A stretch of DNA of 32,375 bases, from contig JAPKDA010000016.1 in assembly GCA_028822695.1 (NCBI GenBank), positions 1-32,375 of the forward strand. The letters are read 5' to 3'. The stretch comes from Akkermansiaceae bacterium (lineage in GTDB: Bacteria; Verrucomicrobiota; Verrucomicrobiia; Verrucomicrobiales; Akkermansiaceae). Position 1 is the stretch's first letter; every line of letters starts with the position of its first letter. This document shows positions 5,403 through 30,362 of this stretch, one piece after another. Under the pieces are notes generated by a model. That model made no database searches and was not told the origin of the DNA. It saw nothing but the letters and a program-made list of their open reading frames with translations. A program made the position numbers and the translations under genes.

Positions 5403-6695
5403 TCACTTCTTGTTCTTCTTTTTCTTGGGGAGGCCGAGGTGGGCGGGGCGTTGGCCGTGGAATTTGTTCAGGCCGGACTGAAGCATGGTGTGGGTTTGCT
5501 TGAGCTCATCACTGAGGGCGGTGAGGTCGAGTGGCTTCTTTTCGAGGACATCGTTCTTGATGTCGTAGAGTTTGCCGTCGCTGTAGAGTTTGTAACGTTG
5601 GTTGCGGGCGAAGCTCCGGGCCCCTTTATTCTGACCGCTCCGCGAGTACCACATGTAGATGTGGTCGCGGTGCTTGGTTTTGGGGGCTTTGAGGGTGGCG
5701 AGGAGGCTCTTGCCGTCGATGTTGTCAGGAGTGGCGGTGCCGGAAATCTCGCAGAGGGTGGGGAGGACGTCGCTGAAGTCGAGGATCTCGGTGGAGACGG
5801 TGCCGGCGGGAACGGTTCCGGGCCAGGTGGCGATGCAGGGGACACGGTTGCCGCCGTCGTGCATGGCGCCTTTCGCTCCGACGACCTTGCGACCGTTCAT
5901 CATGGAGACGACCGGTTTGTCGGTGCCGTTGTCGCCGAGAAAGATGACGAGGGTATTTTCGCGGAGGCCGGTTTCATCGAGTTTGGCGAGGATCTTGCCG
6001 ACGATCTTGTCCATGTAGGTGACCATGTCGCCGAAGTATTTGGCGTCGCCCTTGTAGGTTTTTGAACCCGGGCTTTTGGGATCCCAATCCTTGGAATCGG
6101 GAGTGGGCTCGAAGGGGCAGTGGGTGAGGATCATGGGATAGTAGAGGAGGAAGGGTTGCTCCTTGTTCTTCTCGATGAAATTGCAGGCGTGATCGCTGAC
6201 GACGTCGGGAAGGTATTCGCCGTTGGTGTAGTCGACATTCTGGCCGTTGACTTCGAGTCCGCCGTTGGGGTAGCGGCTGGGTCGGCGGGTGATCTGCCAG
6301 AGAGCGTAGTCGTCGAATCCGAAATGGCCCGGTCCTTCCATGCCTCCCTTGAGTTGCCACTTGCCGACCACGCAGGTTGCGTAGCCTTCCTTTTTGAGGA
6401 GATGGGCGAAGGTGGTTTGCTTGGGGTCGAGAAGGCCGAACTCGACGTAGTTGCGGATGTTGGAGATGCCGGTCATCAGTTTGACCCGCGAGGGGGTGCA
6501 GATCGGCTGGGAGTAGCAGTGCTCGAAGCGCATGCCTTGTTTGGCCATCTGGTCGAGGTGCGGAGTCTTGTAGGAGGTGCCGCCGTTGGCTGCGATGCAT
6601 TCGTAGCCGAGGTCGTCGGCCATGATGACGACGATGTTGGGTTTGGCGCTGGCGCAGGCGATGGTGGCGGTGAGGAAGAGGAGGAGGCGGTTCAT
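5403..6695 (-). CDS. Secreted type I sulfatase (arylsulfatase family)
   Basis: 430 residues. Signal peptide about 1-17 (MNRLLLFLTATIACASA). The mature protein starts with the sulfatase block KPNIVVIMADDLGY (metal-binding Asp27-Asp28) and has the formylglycine motif CTPSR (Cys66), which a formylglycine-generating enzyme (sulfatase-modifying factor) would oxidise. A second metal site appears as FLGDNGTDKP. The C-terminus ends in a lysine-rich LPKKKKNKK tail. Such sulfatases remove sulfate esters from algal or host polysaccharides, which fits the carbohydrate genes at 25-30 kb. No sulfatase-modifying enzyme is in the window. Substrate cannot be read from the sequence. Confidence 0.92.
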   Translation of the reverse strand: MNRLLLFLTATIACASAKPNIVVIMADDLGYECIAANGGTSYKTPHLDQMAKQGMRFEHCYSQPICTPSRVKLMTGISNIRNYVEFGLLDPKQTTFAHLLKKEGYATCVVGKWQLKGGMEGPGHFGFDDYALWQITRRPSRYPNGGLEVNGQNVDYTNGEYLPDVVSDHACNFIEKNKEQPFLLYYPMILTHCPFEPTPDSKDWDPKSPGSKTYKGDAKYFGDMVTYMDKIVGKILAKLDETGLRENTLVIFLGDNGTDKPVVSMMNGRKVVGAKGAMHDGGNRVPCIATWPGTVPAGTVSTEILDFSDVLPTLCEISGTATPDNIDGKSLLATLKAPKTKHRDHIYMWYSRSGQNKGARSFARNQRYKLYSDGKLYDIKNDVLEKKPLDLTALSDELKQTHTMLQSGLNKFHGQRPAHLGLPKKKKNKK

Positions 6696-21363: not shown

Positions 21364-23955
21364 ATGAGCGTGCCAAAAATATCGGGTTATCGGATCGAAT
21401 CCTTGATCGGTAAGGGGGCTTGCGGGGTTGTCTACGCAGCCCGGCACACCTCTGGGGCCCGTATTGCGGTCAAGGTCTTACACGAAGATTCCTGCAATCC
21501 GGGGCTGATCGCAAATCAGCTCAATCGGCTCTATCGGACCGAGTGTCCGGAGGGGGCGCTGCCTCTGATCGCTCATTCCCTGAATAAACGCCCAATTTTG
21601 CTCCTGGGATCGCTTGAGGCGGATCGGGTGGAGCAGGAGATCGGGGAGCATTATGTGCCCCGGACGCTGCAGATGCGGTTGGCGGATTACCTCGGCAAGC
21701 CCGAGTCGTGGGATCTCATTTTGAAGTTGGCGGAGACCTTGGCGGACTTCCACCGGCGACGTGTTGCGCACGGCAACCTGAAGCCGGGTAATATCTTTCT
21801 GTCGACGGACGGTGCGCCGTTGTTGTCGGACTTCGCACAGGGGTTGATGCCGGGCATCAAGGCCTTGTCTTATTCCGACGCGCTGCTCTATGCGCCGCCG
21901 GAGCAGCTGAACGATCCTGAGAGTTACCTCGAGGGAGCGGGTTACGGATGGGACGTGTATGGATTCGGGGTGTTGGCGTTTCGTTTGTTGAACGGAATGT
22001 TCCCGCGCTGTGATGAAGTCTTTGCGCAGGTCGCGCCGGAGCCGGGTCAGGCACGGCGGAAGGGAGTGGAGGCAGACTGCGAACGTCTGGCGCGGAAGTT
22101 GGAGGGAAGTCCACTCGTTCCGTGGCGTGAAATTTCGGTGAATCCGGAAGAGACGGCACGTCGTCAAATTCTGGAGCGGTGTTTGCATCTCGATCCGAAC
22201 GAGCGTTACCGCGACATGCGTGACGTGCTACAGGACTTGCGCGACATTGGCACGACCAAGGCAACGGTTGAAGAGCGGCAGGATGAAGAAGAGCGGCTCG
22301 ACGTCGAAGTGCGAAGCAAGAGGCGTTGGCGCGGTGTGGCCGGAGCGGGGATTGCTGCGACCTTGGCCTTGGGAGGCATCGTCTTCCTGATGACTTCGGA
22401 GCAGAACCGTTGGGAGCAGACCCACATGGACAAACTCGCGGAGGTGCAGAGTAACTCGACGAATTTCAAGAATCAGAAGCTGGAGGAAAAGGTCGCCCTT
22501 GAGAATGGGATGGCTATTTCCCGGCGAGACAAGGAAGCCGCGGAAGAATTGACTGAGCGATTGCGGACGCGATTCGGGTCGATGGGTGAGGATTTGGCGA
22601 TGTCTTACGAGCTGAGCGATACGCTCTTGGCGTGGACTTTGGAGCGAGGGGCAAGGCAATTGCCGACTTTGGAGGGACGCAGCGGACGATTGGGTTTGTT
22701 GGAGGGTTCCTTGCGTGAACTCTTGGCGAAGATTCCAGAACTCCCGGCTTTGGAGCGTCAGCAATGGAGGATCGAGTTGGCCTTGGCGGAAGTTCTGGTC
22801 TCCGGCGGGAAGATCGAGGAAGCGCGGAAGTATTTGGCCTCGGCGATCGAGGCCGCTCCGGAGACGGGGACGAAAGTCGGCGAACGGGTGGGCCGGGCGC
22901 GGGTGTTGATTTGTCTGCTCGCCTCCGAGAGTGGCGACGTCAGGGTGAGTGAGGCGGGCATACAGCGTGCCAAGCAGGCTATCGCGAGACTGCCGGAAGG
23001 GGATGCTTCACGGGAGCGGTTGGGGGCGGCGATGCATTTGGTGGAAGCCCGCCGCGACCGTTACGCTGGAAATATTGAGAAGGCCTTGGAGCATTATCGG
23101 GCGGCGTTCGAAGCGATGACCTTGCTTTGTCAGGCGGATCCGCAGAATGGGGCGCTGACCTTGTGGCGGGTGCAGGGATACACCGAAGCGGCGGAGAGTG
23201 CGGAGGGTGCGGGAGTGGCCGATGCAGCGATGGTGTTGCGTCAGAAGGCTGCGGCGGAGTTGATGCAGATGTTGGATCAGGATACGACCGATCCGGATGT
23301 GATGGTGGAGTTGTCCGGAGCCTTGGCGGCACAGTCCGAGGCGAAACTGGAGATGGGTGATTTGAAAAATGCCAGAGAGTTGGCGCTGCGGGGGATCAAG
23401 TTGTGTGAAGATGTTCTCAAGCAAGGGCGTCCGTTTCCGCGGGCGAAGGTGTTGCTTGGTGGACACATGAGTGTGGTGGCGACTTGCCAGCACTCCAAGG
23501 GCGATGCGAACGGGGCGCTGGCGGCCGTGGACAAGGGGATCGCGTTGGTCAACGAAGCGCTTGATGAGGAGGGGAACGATGAGCTTGCTCCTTTCCGTCT
23601 GGCCTTGTTGAAATGGCAGAAGGCGACGATGAGCGGGTTCTTTGGAGAGCGGGCCGACGAGTTGATTTTCGGGAAGGAAGCGCGGGCTCACTTGATGACG
23701 ATTCTCGGTGGGAAGTGCCATTATCCCTCCAAGCGCCAGGTGCGACGGGTGCTGGCGCATTTGAGTGGCGACCTCGGGGTGGCTTCGCTGAACGCGGGGC
23801 AGAACGACGAGGCGATCAAATATTTCCGCGAGTCGGTGGCGCTTTGGGTTGTTCTGACGAAGGAGGAAGAGGAGAATTTCGAGTTTGAGGAAGGGCTGCA
23901 GTGGGCGCGGGAGCGGTTGAGTGAGATGGGTGTGGTGACGTTGTTGGAGGAATGA
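21364..23955 (+). CDS. Membrane Hanks-type kinase homologue with TPR-like sensor domain, probable pseudokinase
   Basis: 863 residues. The kinase-like domain is at about 8-300: Gly loop GKGACGVVY (16-24) and the ATP-anchoring Lys37 (IAVKVL) are intact, and the APE loop is YAPPEQ. The catalytic loop reads HGNLKPGN (136-143) instead of HRDLKPEN, so the catalytic Asp is Asn138 (codon AAC at 21775-21777), and DFG reads DFA (156-158). Mg2+ Asn143 and Asp156 remain, so nucleotide binding may survive without phosphotransfer. A membrane helix follows at about 326-345 (AGAGIAATLALGGIVFLM), then a coiled coil and a 450-residue outer part of TPR-like helices. No phosphatase, FHA or sigma factor gene is next to it. 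A bacterial kinase with weak activity cannot be excluded. Confidence 0.85.
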   Translation: MSVPKISGYRIESLIGKGACGVVYAARHTSGARIAVKVLHEDSCNPGLIANQLNRLYRTECPEGALPLIAHSLNKRPILLLGSLEADRVEQEIGEHYVPRTLQMRLADYLGKPESWDLILKLAETLADFHRRRVAHGNLKPGNIFLSTDGAPLLSDFAQGLMPGIKALSYSDALLYAPPEQLNDPESYLEGAGYGWDVYGFGVLAFRLLNGMFPRCDEVFAQVAPEPGQARRKGVEADCERLARKLEGSPLVPWREISVNPEETARRQILERCLHLDPNERYRDMRDVLQDLRDIGTTKATVEERQDEEERLDVEVRSKRRWRGVAGAGIAATLALGGIVFLMTSEQNRWEQTHMDKLAEVQSNSTNFKNQKLEEKVALENGMAISRRDKEAAEELTERLRTRFGSMGEDLAMSYELSDTLLAWTLERGARQLPTLEGRSGRLGLLEGSLRELLAKIPELPALERQQWRIELALAEVLVSGGKIEEARKYLASAIEAAPETGTKVGERVGRARVLICLLASESGDVRVSEAGIQRAKQAIARLPEGDASRERLGAAMHLVEARRDRYAGNIEKALEHYRAAFEAMTLLCQADPQNGALTLWRVQGYTEAAESAEGAGVADAAMVLRQKAAAELMQMLDQDTTDPDVMVELSGALAAQSEAKLEMGDLKNARELALRGIKLCEDVLKQGRPFPRAKVLLGGHMSVVATCQHSKGDANGALAAVDKGIALVNEALDEEGNDELAPFRLALLKWQKATMSGFFGERADELIFGKEARAHLMTILGGKCHYPSKRQVRRVLAHLSGDLGVASLNAGQNDEAIKYFRESVALWVVLTKEEEENFEFEEGLQWARERLSEMGVVTLLEE

Positions 23956-24039: not shown

Positions 24040-24117
24040 CCGAAAGCACGCAGTGCTTTCTTGACGTGACCGTCGGTCCAGTGAAGCGGTTGTTGAACTT
24101 ATTCACAATAATATGGG
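24040..24117 (+). pseudogene. Relic of the 3' end of a toroid-lyase-like gene (H')
   Basis: The 29 bases from 24061 (TTGACGTGACCGTCGGTCCA then GTGAAGCGG) match 28651-28679 with one mismatch. They read IDVTVGPVKRLLNLF, against IDVTVGPVKRRLDFSR at the end of the intact gene. No start, no stop in frame and no homology upstream, so only the tail survives. A perfect 8-bp hairpin GAAAGCAC-GCA-GTGCTTTC sits directly before it (24042-24060). Confidence 0.7.
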
Positions 24118-24203
24118 TAAGTAAAAGATTGCCCCCCAAGCGTATACCTAAGCAAAAGATTGCCCCCCAAGCGTATACCTAAGCAAAAGATTGCCCCCCA
24201 AGC
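24118..24203. repeat. Tandem array, 2.8 copies of a 31-bp unit
   Basis: The unit is TAAGYAAAAGATTGCCCCCC then AAGCGTATACC, copies starting at 24118, 24149 and 24180. The parts are nearly identical (one T/C difference in the first copy). Thirty-one is not a multiple of three, so it does not encode a repeat protein. The AT-rich flanks and its place in a relic zone suggest the end of an insertion element; IS21-type ends carry repeated transposase sites. This is a guess: no transposase is nearby. Confidence 0.85.
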
Positions 24204-24256
24204 TCCAGATTTAAATAAAGCCAGCCAGCCCCCTCTCCTAGGGGAAAGGGAAGCCT

Positions 24257-24298
24257 GCATGAATGAATTTGCTGGCCGGCATGAATGAATTTACTGGC
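24257..24298. repeat. 22-bp direct repeat
   Basis: GCATGAATGAATTTGCTGGC (24257-24276) is followed at a distance of 22 bases by GCATGAATGAATTTACTGGC (24279-24298). It lies just after CCCTCTCCTAGGGGAAAGGG, itself a near palindrome. The repeats carry candidate ATG codons that extend the next gene; they are more likely a local duplication. Confidence 0.7.
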
Positions 24299-24379
24299 GT
24301 GGAGGTCGATAGGGTGTTAGGAATGTTCTTTAGGAAGAAAATTCTTCCTGAGAGAGAGCAGGAAGATCAAGCCGCTGGT

Positions 24380-24682
24380 ATGAACACCCTACAAAAAAAC
24401 GACGCCGGACGACTCCTCTTTAAGGACCGAGTCAACGTCCTCATTCGGCTCCATGAGGAGGAGGTGAAGAAAGTGAGAGCTGCGCTCAGGCGTCGACGTT
24501 TCAAGTTCGCCGAGCGCGATTACGCCCACTTCACCGCAGTGAAGGCCGGCTTGCATGTCACCGCCTACCAGAAGGGGCCGAAGGTGTTGATACAGGGGAA
24601 CGAGGCCATGGACTTTGCGCGTTCCGTGTTGGAGCCGTTGGTCAGCGGGTTGAATATCGTTGCGACCGACGGAGAGCATTAA
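24380..24682 (+). CDS. Orphan RNase HIII N-terminal-like domain (DUF3378/TBP-like)
   Basis: 100 residues from ATG 24380 (MNTLQKNDAGRL). The stretch EEEVKKVRAALRRRRFKFAE followed by RDYAHFTAVKAGLHVTAYQK and VLIQGNEAMDFARSVLEP fits the N-terminal substrate-binding domain of RNase HIII, where 'YA.F......V..Y.SGK...QGK...F..F.LEP' is typical. The catalytic RNase H domain (DE/D/D residues) is absent, and the frame stops soon after the domain (NIVATDGEH). It may be a truncated rnhC relic or a stand-alone binder. An upstream ATG at 24263 lies in the duplicated 22-bp repeat and was not used. No partner gene is adjacent. Confidence 0.6.
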   Translation: MNTLQKNDAGRLLFKDRVNVLIRLHEEEVKKVRAALRRRRFKFAERDYAHFTAVKAGLHVTAYQKGPKVLIQGNEAMDFARSVLEPLVSGLNIVATDGEH

Positions 24683-24764: not shown

Positions 24765-25091
24765 TCAGTAGCGCTTTGGGTTGTTCTGAGGAAGGAGGAA
24801 GAGGGCGATGGGGTCAGCAATTTTGATGAGTATGTTACGGGAACGGATCCAACGGATGGCGGCTCGTTTTTCGGCATCGATAGCATCACGCTTGCTCCTG
24901 ATGATGGCTACGTCGTCACTTGGCAGAGCGCCGTGGGCCGCAACTACGTCGTCTACCATTCGGAGCCTCTCTCCGGCATCTGGTTGCCGCTATCCGGAAC
25001 CTTGGCGGGCACCGGCGGTGAGCTCTCGTTCACCGATCCGGAGGATGGACTCACCGAGAGATTCTATCGGATCGGCGTCACCCTGCCCTGA
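24765..25091 (+). pseudogene. Relic: kinase-gene fragment (K') joined in frame to the C-terminus of a secreted Verrucomicrobia-type protein
   Basis: 24771-24804 repeats 23839-23872 of the pseudokinase gene with one mismatch in 34 bases. In the kinase reading frame the text runs SVALWVVLRKEEE and goes straight on as GDGVSNFDEYVTGTDPTDGG, then SFFGIDSITL, VVTWQSAVGRNYVVYHSEP and ends FYRIGVTLP. The second part is the usual C-terminal module of Verrucomicrobia secreted proteins ('DGVSNFDEY.AGTDPTD...SFF'). A stop at 24753-24755 closes the frame upstream and there is no start codon, so it is a gene end without a beginning. Confidence 0.75.
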
Positions 25092-25246: not shown

Positions 25247-26713
25247 ATGAAAAATATGTATAGATTGATCCCTCTTGTCCTGACGGCAGCCCTGTTTCCG
25301 ACCGTCTCTGTCTGCGCGGCCGCAGAGCCGAGCATCAAAATCGGTTTGATCGGAGATTCCACCGTGGCCGAGCAATCTGGTTGGGGCCCGGCCTTCGCGA
25401 GTCGATTCAATGAACAGGCGGAGATCATCAACTACGCGAAGAACGGTGCCACCCTCGAGGCCTTGTCCGGGAAACTGGACGCGCTCGTGGAGCTCAAGCC
25501 CGACTATGTCCTGATTCAATTCGGCCACAACGATCAGAAGCGATATGATACGGCTGTCTATAGTGATCACCTGAGGTCGTATGTCGCACGAATCCGGAAG
25601 GCGGGCGGCAAGGCGGTGATTGTGAGTTCGGTCACCCGGCGCAGCTTCGATGTTCAGGGGAAGATCGTGTCCAACATGGTCAAAAACGAAAAGTACAGCT
25701 ACCAGGCAAATTTGACCGCTTACGCAAATGCCGCCGAAGCGGTGGCGGGGGAGCTGGCTCTGCCGTTCATCGACCTGCACCGAACCAGCATTGCGCACCA
25801 CAACAAGATCGGCCGGGAGGAGAGCATGAGCTATAACTTCAAGGAAGGGGACAAGACCCACTTCAATCGAAAAGGGGCGGAGGCCATCACGAACCTGATC
25901 CTGAAGGAGATCGAGACCGCCGTGCCGAAGATCTCTGCCTGGTTGAAGTCTGAAGAGGAACTGGTCGCGGCGCGGAGTCGGGCCGCTTTCGAAGTGGTTG
26001 ACTCGGTTGAATGGAAGGGTGTCTTTTTCGACTCCTTCACGAAGGACTGGGAGAAGCAATGGACCCTCGACGGCGAGGTCGGCACGGCGAAGAACACTCC
26101 GGAAGGCATTGAGCTGACCGCTGGTCCGGAGTTTAGAAACGACGCGCACCACATGGTGCTTTGGACCCGGAAGAGCTTCGAAGGTGACGTGAGGATCGAC
26201 TACGAAGTCGTCCGCTTGGATTCCTCGGAAGAGGGAGTGAATATTCTCTACATTCAAGCAACAGGTGGCGGGGAGGGGCCGTATAAGAAGGACATTTCAG
26301 CATGGAGTGATCTGCGGCGCGTGCCGGCCATGAAGACGTATTTCAACAACATGCAGACCTATCACATCAGCTATGCGGTGCCCGGCGACAGGGACTACAT
26401 CCGGGCCCGCCGCTACATGCCGAACAGATCGGGGCTGAAGGGGACGGCTCTCGCGCCGGACTATTTCCGCAACGGACTTTTTGCCACAGGCGTGCCGCAC
26501 AAGCTCACCGTCATCAAACAGGATCGGGACATTTTCATGCGTGTCCGCAATGCGGAACAAACCCGCCACTACCACTGGCACAACGACAAGCTGCCGCCTA
26601 TTGAAGAGGGGCGCATCGGCTTGCGCCTGATGTTCACCCGTGCCTCCAGAATCAAAGACTTCCGTGTCAGCGTTCCCCTCCCGAACCCGACTCAAAAGAC
26701 TCATGATGAGTAG
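25247..26713 (+). CDS. Secreted SGNH/GDSL esterase fused to a DUF1961 domain
   Basis: 488 residues from the second of two adjacent start codons (TTG then ATG). Signal peptide about 1-26. Residues 30-235 follow the rhamnogalacturonan acetylesterase branch of SGNH hydrolases: block I IGLIGDSTVAEQ (nucleophile Ser about 38), block II NYAKNGAT, block III FGHNDQKR, block V DKTHFNRKGA (His). The C-terminal half (about 250-475, VEWKGVFFDSF..., HHMVLWTRKSFEGDVRIDYE, YHISYAVPGDRDYIRARRYMPNR) fits DUF1961, a jelly-roll module found with polysaccharide lyases. It probably removes acetyl groups from a plant or algal polysaccharide. The stop overlaps the start of the next gene by 11 bases, so the two are coupled. 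Confidence 0.85.
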   Translation: MKNMYRLIPLVLTAALFPTVSVCAAAEPSIKIGLIGDSTVAEQSGWGPAFASRFNEQAEIINYAKNGATLEALSGKLDALVELKPDYVLIQFGHNDQKRYDTAVYSDHLRSYVARIRKAGGKAVIVSSVTRRSFDVQGKIVSNMVKNEKYSYQANLTAYANAAEAVAGELALPFIDLHRTSIAHHNKIGREESMSYNFKEGDKTHFNRKGAEAITNLILKEIETAVPKISAWLKSEEELVAARSRAAFEVVDSVEWKGVFFDSFTKDWEKQWTLDGEVGTAKNTPEGIELTAGPEFRNDAHHMVLWTRKSFEGDVRIDYEVVRLDSSEEGVNILYIQATGGGEGPYKKDISAWSDLRRVPAMKTYFNNMQTYHISYAVPGDRDYIRARRYMPNRSGLKGTALAPDYFRNGLFATGVPHKLTVIKQDRDIFMRVRNAEQTRHYHWHNDKLPPIEEGRIGLRLMFTRASRIKDFRVSVPLPNPTQKTHDE

Positions 26714-28700
26714 ACCGCTTTCAATGATCCTGGCACCCTTGTTGGCGGTATTCCTCGGGCCTGCGGTGGCGGAGGAAGAAAGCGCTGCCCGGGACCATGC
26801 TTCGGGCCATCTTCGGGCCGAGGACAGGTATGCCGGCCATGAGGCGCTGGTGGCCGAAACGCACAAGGCATCGCGGGTGGCCCGGGACCGTGCCCTGCAC
26901 AGGACTATTTCGAGGAATACCAGTGGGCCTCCCGGCGCGTGGGGCGAGACGCTTTGGTCGCTCGCCGCGCTGTATTTGAATGAGAAGGTGGACCTCGCCA
27001 ATGAGCGCTTGCTGAAGCGGGCGAAGGAGTACGTCGCGCTGAAACGGTCCAAAGCAGAGGTTTCGGAGTTTCTTCCGGAGGGGTCCAAGGAAACTCCGTG
27101 GAGCTACTTTGCCCTGACTGATTACGTGCGGATCTACTACTTGTTCCATGCCAAGAGTGCTCATTTTCCCGGCCGCCTGAAGCCCGAGACGGAGGCCGCG
27201 ATGAAGGAGGCGCTGTGGTTCTGGGTGAAGGAAGATAGTAAGCTGGCGGATGCTTTGATGGAGAATCTCCTGGTTCTGCTCGGGACCGAAAATCACGACC
27301 TGATCCGGCGACCGAATCACTATCTGGTGGCTTCTCTCCTCAAAGAGGACCCGGGGTATCGAGATCGGCCCTTTGATGACGGGCATACTGCCGTTGAGTA
27401 TGCCGCGGCCTACGAGAAGTTCTTCCGGGAGTGGCCGCGCAAGCGGGCGATGACGGGCTTGTGGTTCGAGGTGGGATCGAACACTTATCAGAAATACTCC
27501 TGGCCGTCGTTGTTCAACCTGCATGAGCTGGCCCCGGATCCCGTGGTGCGGAAGCAATTCGGACTGTTGTTGGATCTGGCGTTCATTGAAGAAGCGCAGA
27601 TCTCGGTTCAAGGTCGACGAGGGGGAGGGCGAAGTCGGGCCAGTTTCGGGAAGAACGGCTTCGAGTCCTACAAGAACCTGTTTTACGCTCCAGACGGAAT
27701 GGCGGCGGGATCGAGTCATTCGAGAGTGATGGAGACCAGCAGCTACCAGCTGCCGGCCGCGGCGATTTTGTTGCGGAGGCGGGAATTTCCAGCGGCGAAG
27801 CCGTTTGTGATTCAGAACCGTGTGCTCGGAGAATTGGAATCTCGTCGACCGGGCGATGGTGAGGGTGCCCGACACGCGGCGGATTCCGCCTTGGTGAACT
27901 ATGCGTATCGGACACCGCACTACCTACTCGGGAGCACCTTGCAAAACCCGGCATTGAGTATGCCGGATCCGGAGGCCGGAGCGCCGGTCCTGAAGTATGC
28001 GGGGATTTCCCGACAGAAGCGCTGGGGTGGGATGCTCTTCCATGACCCGGCGAGCGATGAGATTTGCTCGGTCTCTCCTGTTGTTGAGAAAACCCGTGGC
28101 GGCCGGCCGCAGCATCCGCATTGGAGTGTGCAGCACGAAAATGTGATCCTCTTCCAACGCATCAAGCCGGAGACTCGCAAGCGTTTGGGATCCTATAGCA
28201 CGGGAAAGCTCGGTATTCATTTCCATGGCCGCAAGTTGGAGATGTTGGACGAGGGCGGTTGGATCTTTTCGAGCAACGGAACGGCCTTTGTTGGCGTGAA
28301 TTTTCTGGATGGGGGATACGAGTGGGATGAGGAGAGGGAGGAGGCGAATCCCACGGATTTTGACCAGGCCACGGATACCTCGCGCATTCTTCTTCATGCT
28401 GGCGACCTCATCAGTCACGGTTCATTCGATCAGTTTCGGGAGGAGGTGCTCGCCAATCGTCTGGTAGTGGGCGCGGACAAGGTGGACTATCGGTTCGGGG
28501 CGGCGAAGAATCACCTCGAGGCGACGCTCTATGATGGGGATCGCCCCGAGAAGTTCTCGCTGCCCCGCATCAACGGAAAGCCCGTCGATTTGCGTCCCAA
28601 GCGGACCTTTCAGAGCCCCTACCTCAAGGGGGGATTTGGCAGTGACCAGATTGACGTGACCGTCGGTCCGGTGAAGCGGCGTCTGGACTTTTCGAGATAG
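26703..28700 (+). CDS. Secreted alpha/alpha-toroid polysaccharide-lyase-like protein
   Basis: 665 residues from ATG 26703 (MMSRPLSMILAPLLAVFLGPAVAEE, a signal peptide; 26706 is the alternative). Residues 60-370 look like a toroid of helices (WSLAALYLNEKV, ALWFWVKEDSKLADAL, TENHDLIRRPNHYL, WFEVGSNTYQKYSWPSLFNL), with 'ENH' and 'GxxYxxY' motifs shared by heparinase II/III-like proteins. The C-terminal 300 residues are beta-rich (WGGMLFHDPASDEICSV, GWIFSSNGTAFVGVNFL). Catalytic residues cannot be fixed without an alignment. It is translationally coupled to the SGNH gene, so both likely act on one glycan. Its 3' end (GPVKRRLDF) recurs as a relic at 24061. Confidence 0.7.
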   Translation: MMSRPLSMILAPLLAVFLGPAVAEEESAARDHASGHLRAEDRYAGHEALVAETHKASRVARDRALHRTISRNTSGPPGAWGETLWSLAALYLNEKVDLANERLLKRAKEYVALKRSKAEVSEFLPEGSKETPWSYFALTDYVRIYYLFHAKSAHFPGRLKPETEAAMKEALWFWVKEDSKLADALMENLLVLLGTENHDLIRRPNHYLVASLLKEDPGYRDRPFDDGHTAVEYAAAYEKFFREWPRKRAMTGLWFEVGSNTYQKYSWPSLFNLHELAPDPVVRKQFGLLLDLAFIEEAQISVQGRRGGGRSRASFGKNGFESYKNLFYAPDGMAAGSSHSRVMETSSYQLPAAAILLRRREFPAAKPFVIQNRVLGELESRRPGDGEGARHAADSALVNYAYRTPHYLLGSTLQNPALSMPDPEAGAPVLKYAGISRQKRWGGMLFHDPASDEICSVSPVVEKTRGGRPQHPHWSVQHENVILFQRIKPETRKRLGSYSTGKLGIHFHGRKLEMLDEGGWIFSSNGTAFVGVNFLDGGYEWDEEREEANPTDFDQATDTSRILLHAGDLISHGSFDQFREEVLANRLVVGADKVDYRFGAAKNHLEATLYDGDRPEKFSLPRINGKPVDLRPKRTFQSPYLKGGFGSDQIDVTVGPVKRRLDFSR

Positions 28701-28745
28701 AATACCGCGTGAAACAATGAACTCGAGTCCTACACATCGTCTCAG

Positions 28746-29110
28746 ATGAAGGTGTGTGCCCACCTGTTGCTACCGGTGCTTCTCATGCTGGCGCTGGCGG
28801 AGGTCAGCCGTGGAGAGGGTCAACCGGATGGTGAAGGCGATTCGCAAACATGACGAACGCCATCTGATTACGGTCGGAGTGATTCCCTGGGTGTTCACGT
28901 TTGGTGGAGGCAAGCCCCTGTTCCATGGCCCTCGGGTCGGCAAGGAACTCGACTTTGTGGCGGTGCACTTTCATCCCGAAAAGGGGGGAAGGAGGGACGC
29001 ACGATCGGCGAGGCGATCACCGCTGTGTGGCTGGAGAAGTTCAAGGAAGAGTCCGCTGGCAGAAAGCGGGGATGCGGAAGAGTGACGTGGCGTATCGAGC
29101 CTGAGTTGGG
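28746..29110 (+). pseudogene. Decayed secreted glycoside hydrolase (GH5-like) in several frames
   Basis: An ATG at 28746 gives a signal peptide (MKVCAHLLLPVLLMLALAEV) that stops at 28851. In the next frame, from 28810, the DNA reads [20 protein letters not shown] then [29 protein letters not shown] and HPEKG, a clear match in style to cellulase-like GH5 barrels of this phylum. Then the frame shifts again (29005: [18 protein letters not shown]; then [13 protein letters not shown] and stop). The N-terminal domain and both catalytic Glu residues are missing. The gene lies between two intact carbohydrate genes, so it is a locus member lost by deletion and frameshift. Confidence 0.75.
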
Positions 29111-29207
29111 GTGGTCTGGTGGGTGGAGAATGCCTTCGGGCCAAGCGGTTTTGCAGATTTTTATTTTGTCGGGCTTTCCAGGTGGCACTTGGATTGCTAT
29201 GAGGTTG

Positions 29208-30362
29208 ATGATGAGAAATTCACTGTTGGTCAGCATGACCGCTACCCTGGTGTTGGGAGGTGCGGCCCTTGCCGAGAAGGCTGTGTTGCGCGTCGGGCAT
29301 GCGCAGAGTGAGAAGGACGCGTTGGCGGAGTTGGAGGGGTTCAAGAAGTCCTATTCGGATCTGGCCGGGTGGGAGGAGCGGAAGAAGACGATCCGGGAGG
29401 GGATTCTCAGGGGAACCGGACTGAGCACGCTTCCTGAGAAGACGAATCTCAATGCGAAGTTTTCGAACAAGCGAAGCTACGATGGGTATACTGCGGAGAG
29501 CGTGGCATTTGAGAGTGCGCCCGGATTTTTTGTGACCGGCACGCTCTATCGTCCGATTGGATTTGAGGGCAGGCTGGCGGGGATTCTTTGTCCGCATGGA
29601 CATGGGGGGCGGTTCAAGGAGAGTCGGCAGAAACGATGTGCGGTATTGGCCCGGATGGGGGCGGCGGTGTTTCTATACGACATGGTGGGGTATGGAGACT
29701 GGAAGGAGGCGGGGTGGTCTCACGGGGAGACGCCGGAAGTTTTGAGGCTGCAGACCTGGAATAGCATTCGGGCATTGGACTTCGTGGGGTCGTTGCCGAA
29801 GGTGGATGTAAAACGGCTTGCGATCACCGGTTGCTCAGGTGGGGGGACACAGAGTTTCATTCTGGCAGCGATCGACGAGCGGGTGGCGGTGAGTGTGCCG
29901 GTTTGCCAGGTGTCGGCGCACTTTTTCGGGGGCTGTGTTTGTGAGAGCGGAATGCCGGTGCACCAGAGTTCAACCCACAAGACGAACAACGCGGAAATTG
30001 CGGCGCTTGCCGCGCCCCGTCCGCAATTGATTGTGTCGGATGGTGAGGACTGGACCAAGAACACGCCCCGCCACGAGTTTCCCTACATTCGCGATGTGTA
30101 TCGATTGTACGGAGCGGAGGGGAAGGTCATGAATGCGCATTTTGCGGATGAAGGACATGACTACGGGGTCTCCAAGCGCATGGCGGTCTATCCGTTTCTG
30201 GCGAAGCATCTGGGCTTGACGCTTGCGGAAGTGCAGGGAGCGGGAGGGAAGGTCGCCGAGTCATTTGTGACGGTGGAGACGCGGGAGGAGATGCTGGTGT
30301 TTGGGAAGGGGAATGCTCGCCCGGAAAGTGCGGTGAAGCCGAATACAGCCTTGCCGAGGTAG
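29208..30362 (+). CDS. Secreted alpha/beta-hydrolase, acetyl-xylan-esterase-like
   Basis: 384 residues from ATG 29208 (ATG 29199 and 29211 are alternatives; GAGG at 29202 supports 29208-29211). Signal peptide about 1-22. The catalytic Ser sits in TGCSGGG (Ser about 210) and the His in GHDYG ([11 protein letters not shown]); the acid is probably in SDGEDW. The '[12 protein letters not shown]' oxyanion block and LYRPIGFEG are typical of large acetyl-xylan-esterase-like hydrolases from Verrucomicrobia and Planctomycetes. It would remove acetyl or other acyl groups from glycans, next to the SGNH esterase gene. Internal Cys residues (GCVCESG) are unusual but do not affect the triad. Confidence 0.8.

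Follow-up and report, generated by a model that had tools for sequence, protein, structure and literature searches.

An SGNH esterase, a DUF1961 domain and a candidate lyase family recur together in Akkermansiaceae and their relatives

Introduction

What do two overlapping genes do together when one encodes an esterase joined to a DUF1961 domain and the other a protein without a match in the Pfam, NCBIfam or PDB sequences? This question is raised by a 32,375-nucleotide contig of an Akkermansiaceae bacterium (JAPKDA010000016.1), here called the window, in which gene 1 (SGNH, or GDSL-like, esterase plus DUF1961) runs into gene 2. An earlier note on this DNA had read the pair as one machine for a complex polysaccharide, with gene 2 as its toroid-lyase-like partner. 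Here, we show that the association recurs across the phylum and on a Fuerstiella contig, both as neighbouring genes and as fused proteins, and we consider it very likely that the three parts form one functional unit. Gene 2 may act in the manner of a toroid lyase; we do not claim its membership of any such family.

Results

The three parts occur together in relatives, fused in several domain orders. DUF1961 precedes gene 2 in locus L002, and also in L070, whose gene 2 part is incomplete, while the order is reversed in L011 and L054. The SGNH domain stands before gene 2 in L062, which is cut by a contig end, and in L052; DUF1961 stands before the SGNH domain in L072 and likewise in L073, which breaks off. 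On the Fuerstiella contig, a single frame of 922 amino acids (aa) holds both DUF1961 and gene 2, and a sulfatase and a SASA-type esterase lie upstream of it. At L149, an SGNH-SASA-DUF1961 arrangement adjoins gene 2, and at L148, which belongs to a different part of the phylum, all three parts share one 1153-aa frame (gene 2-SGNH-DUF1961) whose stop overlaps the probable start of a sulfatase gene (TAATG), with four further sulfatases following. The pair is conserved in relatives, the point on which the earlier note had proposed to check its idea of one machine, and that idea is well supported.

Profile searches found the gene 2 family in 26 of the 288 genomes of the window's order and in 53 of the 387 genomes of its phylum, the latter count including partial and remote matches. 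A DUF1961 profile of our own (A2) matches 13 of the order's genomes, 11 of which carry gene 2, a figure that is biased because A2 was built from DUF1961 domains beside gene 2; we therefore ran the independent Pfam model PF09224. This model matches in 17 of the 288 genomes, 16 of them above the Pfam cut-off (G197 falls below), and it occurs together with gene 2 in 12 (Fisher p 8.7e-11, or 6.8e-10 with the window's own genome removed). Of the 19 DUF1961 matches listed, 11 lie on the same contig as gene 2 and no more than 10 kb from it; the neighbourhoods of gene 2 were inspected in 22 of the 26 genomes (all but G013, G120, G167 and G197). The window-type SGNH domain is present in 30 genomes, frequently as a separate short frame, and co-occurs with A2-profile DUF1961 in seven of the 288 (p 7.4e-5).

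Some of these results weigh against a single unit. Fourteen of the 26 gene 2 genomes have no DUF1961 match, and gene 2 is missing from five of the genomes that carry DUF1961. The tie between the window-type SGNH domain and gene 2 is weak (7 of 30 genomes, p 0.011, or 0.028 without the window's own genome), and all co-occurrence p values are too small, since the genomes are related rather than independent. The 14 genomes without DUF1961 are also what one would cite for chance neighbourhood, in which the overlap in the window would carry no functional meaning, but that explanation is contradicted by the fusions in several domain orders and by the co-occurrence obtained with the independent model. 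We rejected chance neighbourhood of gene 1 and gene 2 on the fusions in relatives, and we regard it as barely credible. DUF1961 and gene 2 look like the tighter pair and the SGNH domain like a recruited general tool, because it often stands alone and its link to gene 2 is weak and its link to DUF1961 better.

Both domains of gene 1 pass their Pfam gathering cut-offs, the SGNH domain with 70.2 bits against 32.9 for PF13472 and DUF1961 with 27.7 bits against 25 for PF09224, and a search of the whole genome with PF09224 recovers the DUF1961 domain at 26054-26668 (29.9 bits). The reading of gene 1 as an SGNH-DUF1961 fusion, the 11-base overlap with gene 2 and the ENH motif of the latter, all reported previously, were confirmed. 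Alignment with relatives places Ser38, Asn95, Asp202 and His205, which we take to be the catalytic set of SGNH hydrolases, at their expected positions. The Ser, Asn and Asp-x-x-His blocks are kept in L062, L072, L148 and L149; the SGNH domains of L052 and L012 have diverged, and that of L012 lacks a Ser at the catalytic position. The best PDB sequence matches of the esterase are YxiM (2o14, 3.6e-9) and a rhamnogalacturonan acetylesterase (1deo, 0.011). SGNH-type rhamnogalacturonan and pectin acetylesterases (1deo, YxiM and PaeY) are among the top solved-structure and NCBIfam matches of gene 1, which shares their GDSTV, GHND and DxxHFN blocks but reaches 20.9 bits against an NCBIfam equivalog cut-off of 1000 and has the additional DUF1961 domain. 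In the window's own genome, which is 94.66% complete, gene 1 and gene 2 each match themselves only. The N-termini of both proteins resemble signal peptides, as judged by eye.

DUF1961 is the family of Bacillus subtilis YesU (PF09224, PDB 1oq1). The PF09224 model also matches in the B. subtilis control genome, and the DUF1961 subfamily of the window aligns with YesU weakly (E 0.58). YesU is reported to bind glycans, with a preference for fucosylated ones, and to resemble fucose-binding lectins, and its gene to adjoin one for a rhamnogalacturonan acetylesterase (PMC6120924). In B. subtilis too, DUF1961 stands beside a carbohydrate acetylesterase (YesU/RhgT), as separate genes in contrast to the fusion in gene 1. 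Elsewhere, at L075 (313-2145), DUF1961 is fused behind what reads by eye as an endonuclease/exonuclease/phosphatase-like domain, and DUF1961 is named in one paper on Fusarium effectors.

The family of gene 2 is undescribed in the sense of Pfam, NCBIfam and PDB. Compared with Pfam, 25 members gave just seven stray families, each in one member (best E 0.0075, CBM_25), and PF07940 and PF16889 were absent from these matches. The 25-member profile has no match to PDB sequences up to E 10, and the 56-member profile only one designed protein (E 1.2). Viral contigs scanned with profiles A1, A2 and A3 held no relative. The 25 members form alignment A3, from whose 28 domain rows L050 (two pieces) and L062 (cut) were excluded; alignment A6 holds 56 sequences, with 31 of 33 frames included and two short L145 pieces left out. 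Codon differences at positions 1, 2 and 3 amount to 0.22, 0.16 and 0.53 between the window and L002 and to 0.29, 0.21 and 0.60 between the window and L063, and this excess at the third position is, judged from sequence comparison, the pattern of a protein-coding gene under selection. A second ATG lies at 26706; starting there, the overlap with gene 1 would be 8 nucleotides.

Relatives of gene 2 vary in context. A scan of GTDB contigs found a relative on the Fuerstiella contig, which comes from a metagenome-assembled genome (MAG) of the Planctomycetota, and some phylum genomes carry several copies side by side. In genomes of family f9 (L142-L145), from the same class, several remote relatives stand in a row, like an expanded enzyme array. 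Gene-2-like domains also occur within frames of 1048-2222 aa (L013, L057, L060, L061), and those of L061 and L057 (1500 and 2222 aa) have Big_5 or PATR repeats.

Five polar residues of gene 2 (E196, N197, E256, Y262 and R312) are invariant in A6, although its members share as little as 17% identity with the protein of the window. N197 and Y262 may be compared with the toroid plus antiparallel beta-sheet lyases of polysaccharide lyase (PL) families 12, 15, 17, 21, 35 and 39, as well as with PL8 and PL23, whose Asn-bearing members have a neutralising Asn followed by a Tyr. In PMC12088678, Asn is the neutraliser and Tyr the acid/base of the tabled Asn-bearing lyases. From its table we computed an Asn-Tyr distance of 54 in PL35, PL12 and the PL15 exoheparinase, 57 in PL17, 53 in PL39, 59 in the PL8 AC lyase and 63 in PL23. 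A further parallel comes from the heparinase-like proteins of the order: among the sequences listed, 11 of 21 show NNH, then Glu and Tyr about 50 residues on. The motif order is the same, with Glu five residues before Tyr, and E256 therefore has a parallel in lyases.

Other observations weigh against gene 2 being a lyase. The distance from Asn197 to Tyr262 is 65, two above the tabled range of 53-63, and H198 is absent in 4 of the 56 members. According to PMC12088678, PL12, 15, 17, 21, 35 and 39 use a His in the beta-sheet domain. Gene 2 has no conserved beta-sheet His, H198 alone reaching at least 50% His in the window-occupied columns (n=56), and in contrast to these lyases it has an extra invariant Glu before the Asn. 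Comparison by hhalign with the order's heparinase II/III-like proteins gave probabilities of 0.0-0.6%, with the full set of 21 sequences, with an NNH-bearing subset that was used because the full set is heterogeneous, and with both. Neither PF07940 nor PF16889 matches anywhere in the window's own genome. Across Pfam, PDB and hhalign, gene 2 does not convincingly resemble any known lyase, whether by sequence or by profile. AlphaFold models built from two-sequence alignments reached a mean predicted local distance difference test score of 32.8 and 38.5 and are unusable for the fold; a model of this very low confidence is helical in its first half and contains strands in its second. The label toroid-lyase-like is plausible as an interpretation of the conserved residues.

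Table 1. Features of the window discussed in the text, with positions on the contig. A6, alignment of 56 gene 2 sequences
Feature	Position	Strand	Details
Gene 1	25247..26713	+	488 aa; ATG 25247, TAG 26711-26713; signal-peptide-like N-terminus, SGNH esterase, DUF1961
SGNH (GDSL-like) esterase domain of gene 1	25349..25882	+	aa 35-212; Pfam PF13472 Lipase_GDSL_2, 4.1e-19
DUF1961 domain of gene 1	26054..26665	+	aa 270-473; Pfam PF09224, 2.0e-6
Gene 2	26703..28700	+	665 aa; ATG 26703; family unmatched in Pfam, NCBIfam and PDB sequences
Overlap between the two genes	26703..26713	+	11 nucleotides, ATGATGAGTAG
E196-N197-H198 (ENH) of gene 2	27288..27296	+	E and N 56/56; H 52/56 (A6)
E256 to Y262 of gene 2	27468..27488	+	E256 and Y262 both 56/56 (A6)
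R312 of gene 2	27636..27638	+	56/56 (A6)
Sulfatase	5406-6695		sole sulfatase found in the window; 18.5 kb from the gene 1/gene 2 locus
Probable relic of a second gene 2 3' end	24061..24100	+	34/40 bases (85%) as in 28651-28690, direct repeat
Alpha/beta-hydrolase-type esterase	29199..30362	+	GCE_fung and AXE1 matches (Pfam); candidate module member

Discussion

Our results are consistent with a modular polysaccharide-processing cassette, probably secreted, and we lean slightly towards the following course of events. The SGNH domain would strip acetyl or similar esters off the chain, as its homology suggests, and DUF1961 would hold the glycan, by analogy with YesU. Gene 2, if a lyase, would then cut uronate-containing chains by beta-elimination, with N197, and H198 in most members, neutralising the carboxylate, Y262 serving as acid/base and R312 assisting. 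Overlapping genes in the window and fused proteins in relatives may keep these activities together, to which several relatives would add sulfatases. For gene 2 itself, we think a toroid fold moderately likely and hold the case for and against lyase activity to be evenly balanced.

The main rival keeps the same machine and makes gene 2 a glycoside hydrolase in which E196 and E256 would serve as the acid and the base. Two glutamates invariant in all 56 members suit a hydrolase, which counts against a lyase, and many glycoside hydrolases too use helical-barrel folds. Set against this are the succession of Asn-His and then Tyr, which matches the order of toroid lyases at near their spacing, and the Glu that also stands five residues before the Tyr in the order's heparinase-like proteins; we judge a hydrolase unlikely. 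Still more doubtful is a reading in which gene 2 and DUF1961 serve for binding or surface display and the SGNH domain is the sole enzyme. Such a role would fit the repeat-bearing frames of L061 and L057 and the report of YesU as a glycan binder akin to fucose-binding lectins (PMC6120924), yet five invariant polar residues at 17% identity resemble an active site more than a binding face.

That the cassette acts on an esterified polysaccharide is likely. Acyl esters in the substrate are suggested by the esterase and, for several relatives, sulfate by the sulfatases near gene 2, while reading gene 2 as a lyase would call for a uronate. Our guess is an acetylated polysaccharide containing uronate and fucose, such as a brown-algal fucan, in relatives perhaps sulfated. 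Luteolibacter is said to have a fucoidan deacetylase and lyase, a lead that our literature search did not confirm.

Sulfatases stand beside or near gene 2 in L148, L152, L046, L054, L045, L062 and L002. With a sulfatase profile derived from four of the loci scanned (L002, L046, L054 and L062), sulfatases or their remnants were found no more than 5 kb from gene 2 in 8 of 26 loci (L002, L011, L045, L046, L047, L052, L054 and L062). Sulfatases are very common in these genomes, with at least 35-72 matches per genome across 19 genomes, and because of this density and the lack of an adjacent sulfatase in the window we rejected the sulfatase link as proof. Adjacency or proximity to sulfatases, which the earlier note had proposed to check, was found in several relatives and not in the window copy. 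The relatives in this respect resemble the sulfatase-rich polysaccharide use of Planctomycetes-Verrucomicrobia-Chlamydiae (PVC) bacteria (PMC6388578), and the window locus differs from it.

The history of the parts appears to be mosaic. The SGNH domain of the window is 82% identical to that of L062, where the fused gene 2 is 28% identical over 482 aa, and 75% identical to that of L072; for ThiC, these two genomes show 84% identity in the core and 66-68% in the N-terminal part. Gene 2 is 68% identical on the Fuerstiella contig, whose ThiC is 57% identical, and 64% identical in a genome of the same family, whose ThiC is 91% identical. Since the SGNH and gene 2 identities are at odds with those of ThiC, the parts seem to have been exchanged laterally between lineages, although mis-binning of MAG contigs has to be kept in mind. 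It is tempting to propose, though only tentatively and with rather less than even confidence, that gene 2 represents an undescribed family of lyases spread widely through the phylum, and that it belongs to a portable, reshuffled and laterally moved cassette in which SGNH is a deacetylase and DUF1961 a lectin. The association links DUF1961 and a family unmatched in the libraries to a defined step of a pathway and points to five invariant residues. Should gene 2 be a lyase, bacteria that degrade decorated polysaccharides would hold a depolymerase class missed by Pfam, NCBIfam and PDB, some members of which are already packaged with a deacetylase in one chain.

Judged by its surroundings, the locus may be what is left of a small gene set after the loss of some members, as had been supposed before. 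Upstream, 24061-24100 reads DVTVGPVKRLLNL in one frame, like the tail of the gene 2 protein; a second copy of gene 2 may once have stood there, with this repeat as its probable relic. Downstream, 28700-29110 has a signal-peptide-like start followed by pieces in changing frames. The earlier note's label of a decayed glycoside hydrolase was not confirmed in the single frame scanned (28756-29082), which has no Pfam match at E 0.01.

Further upstream, 21364-23955 encodes a Ser/Thr kinase with TPR repeats and a weak match, far below cut-off, to the MAD6 defence kinase. At 24118-24210, three tandem copies of a 31-nucleotide unit (100, 97 and 74%) closely precede a partial RNase HIII-like frame (24263-24682), which resembles the N-terminal part alone and is perhaps a fragment (DUF3378 8e-5 and rnhC 1.7e-4, both below cut-off). 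The open stretch at 24791-25090, read by eye, resembles the C-terminus of some large surface protein.

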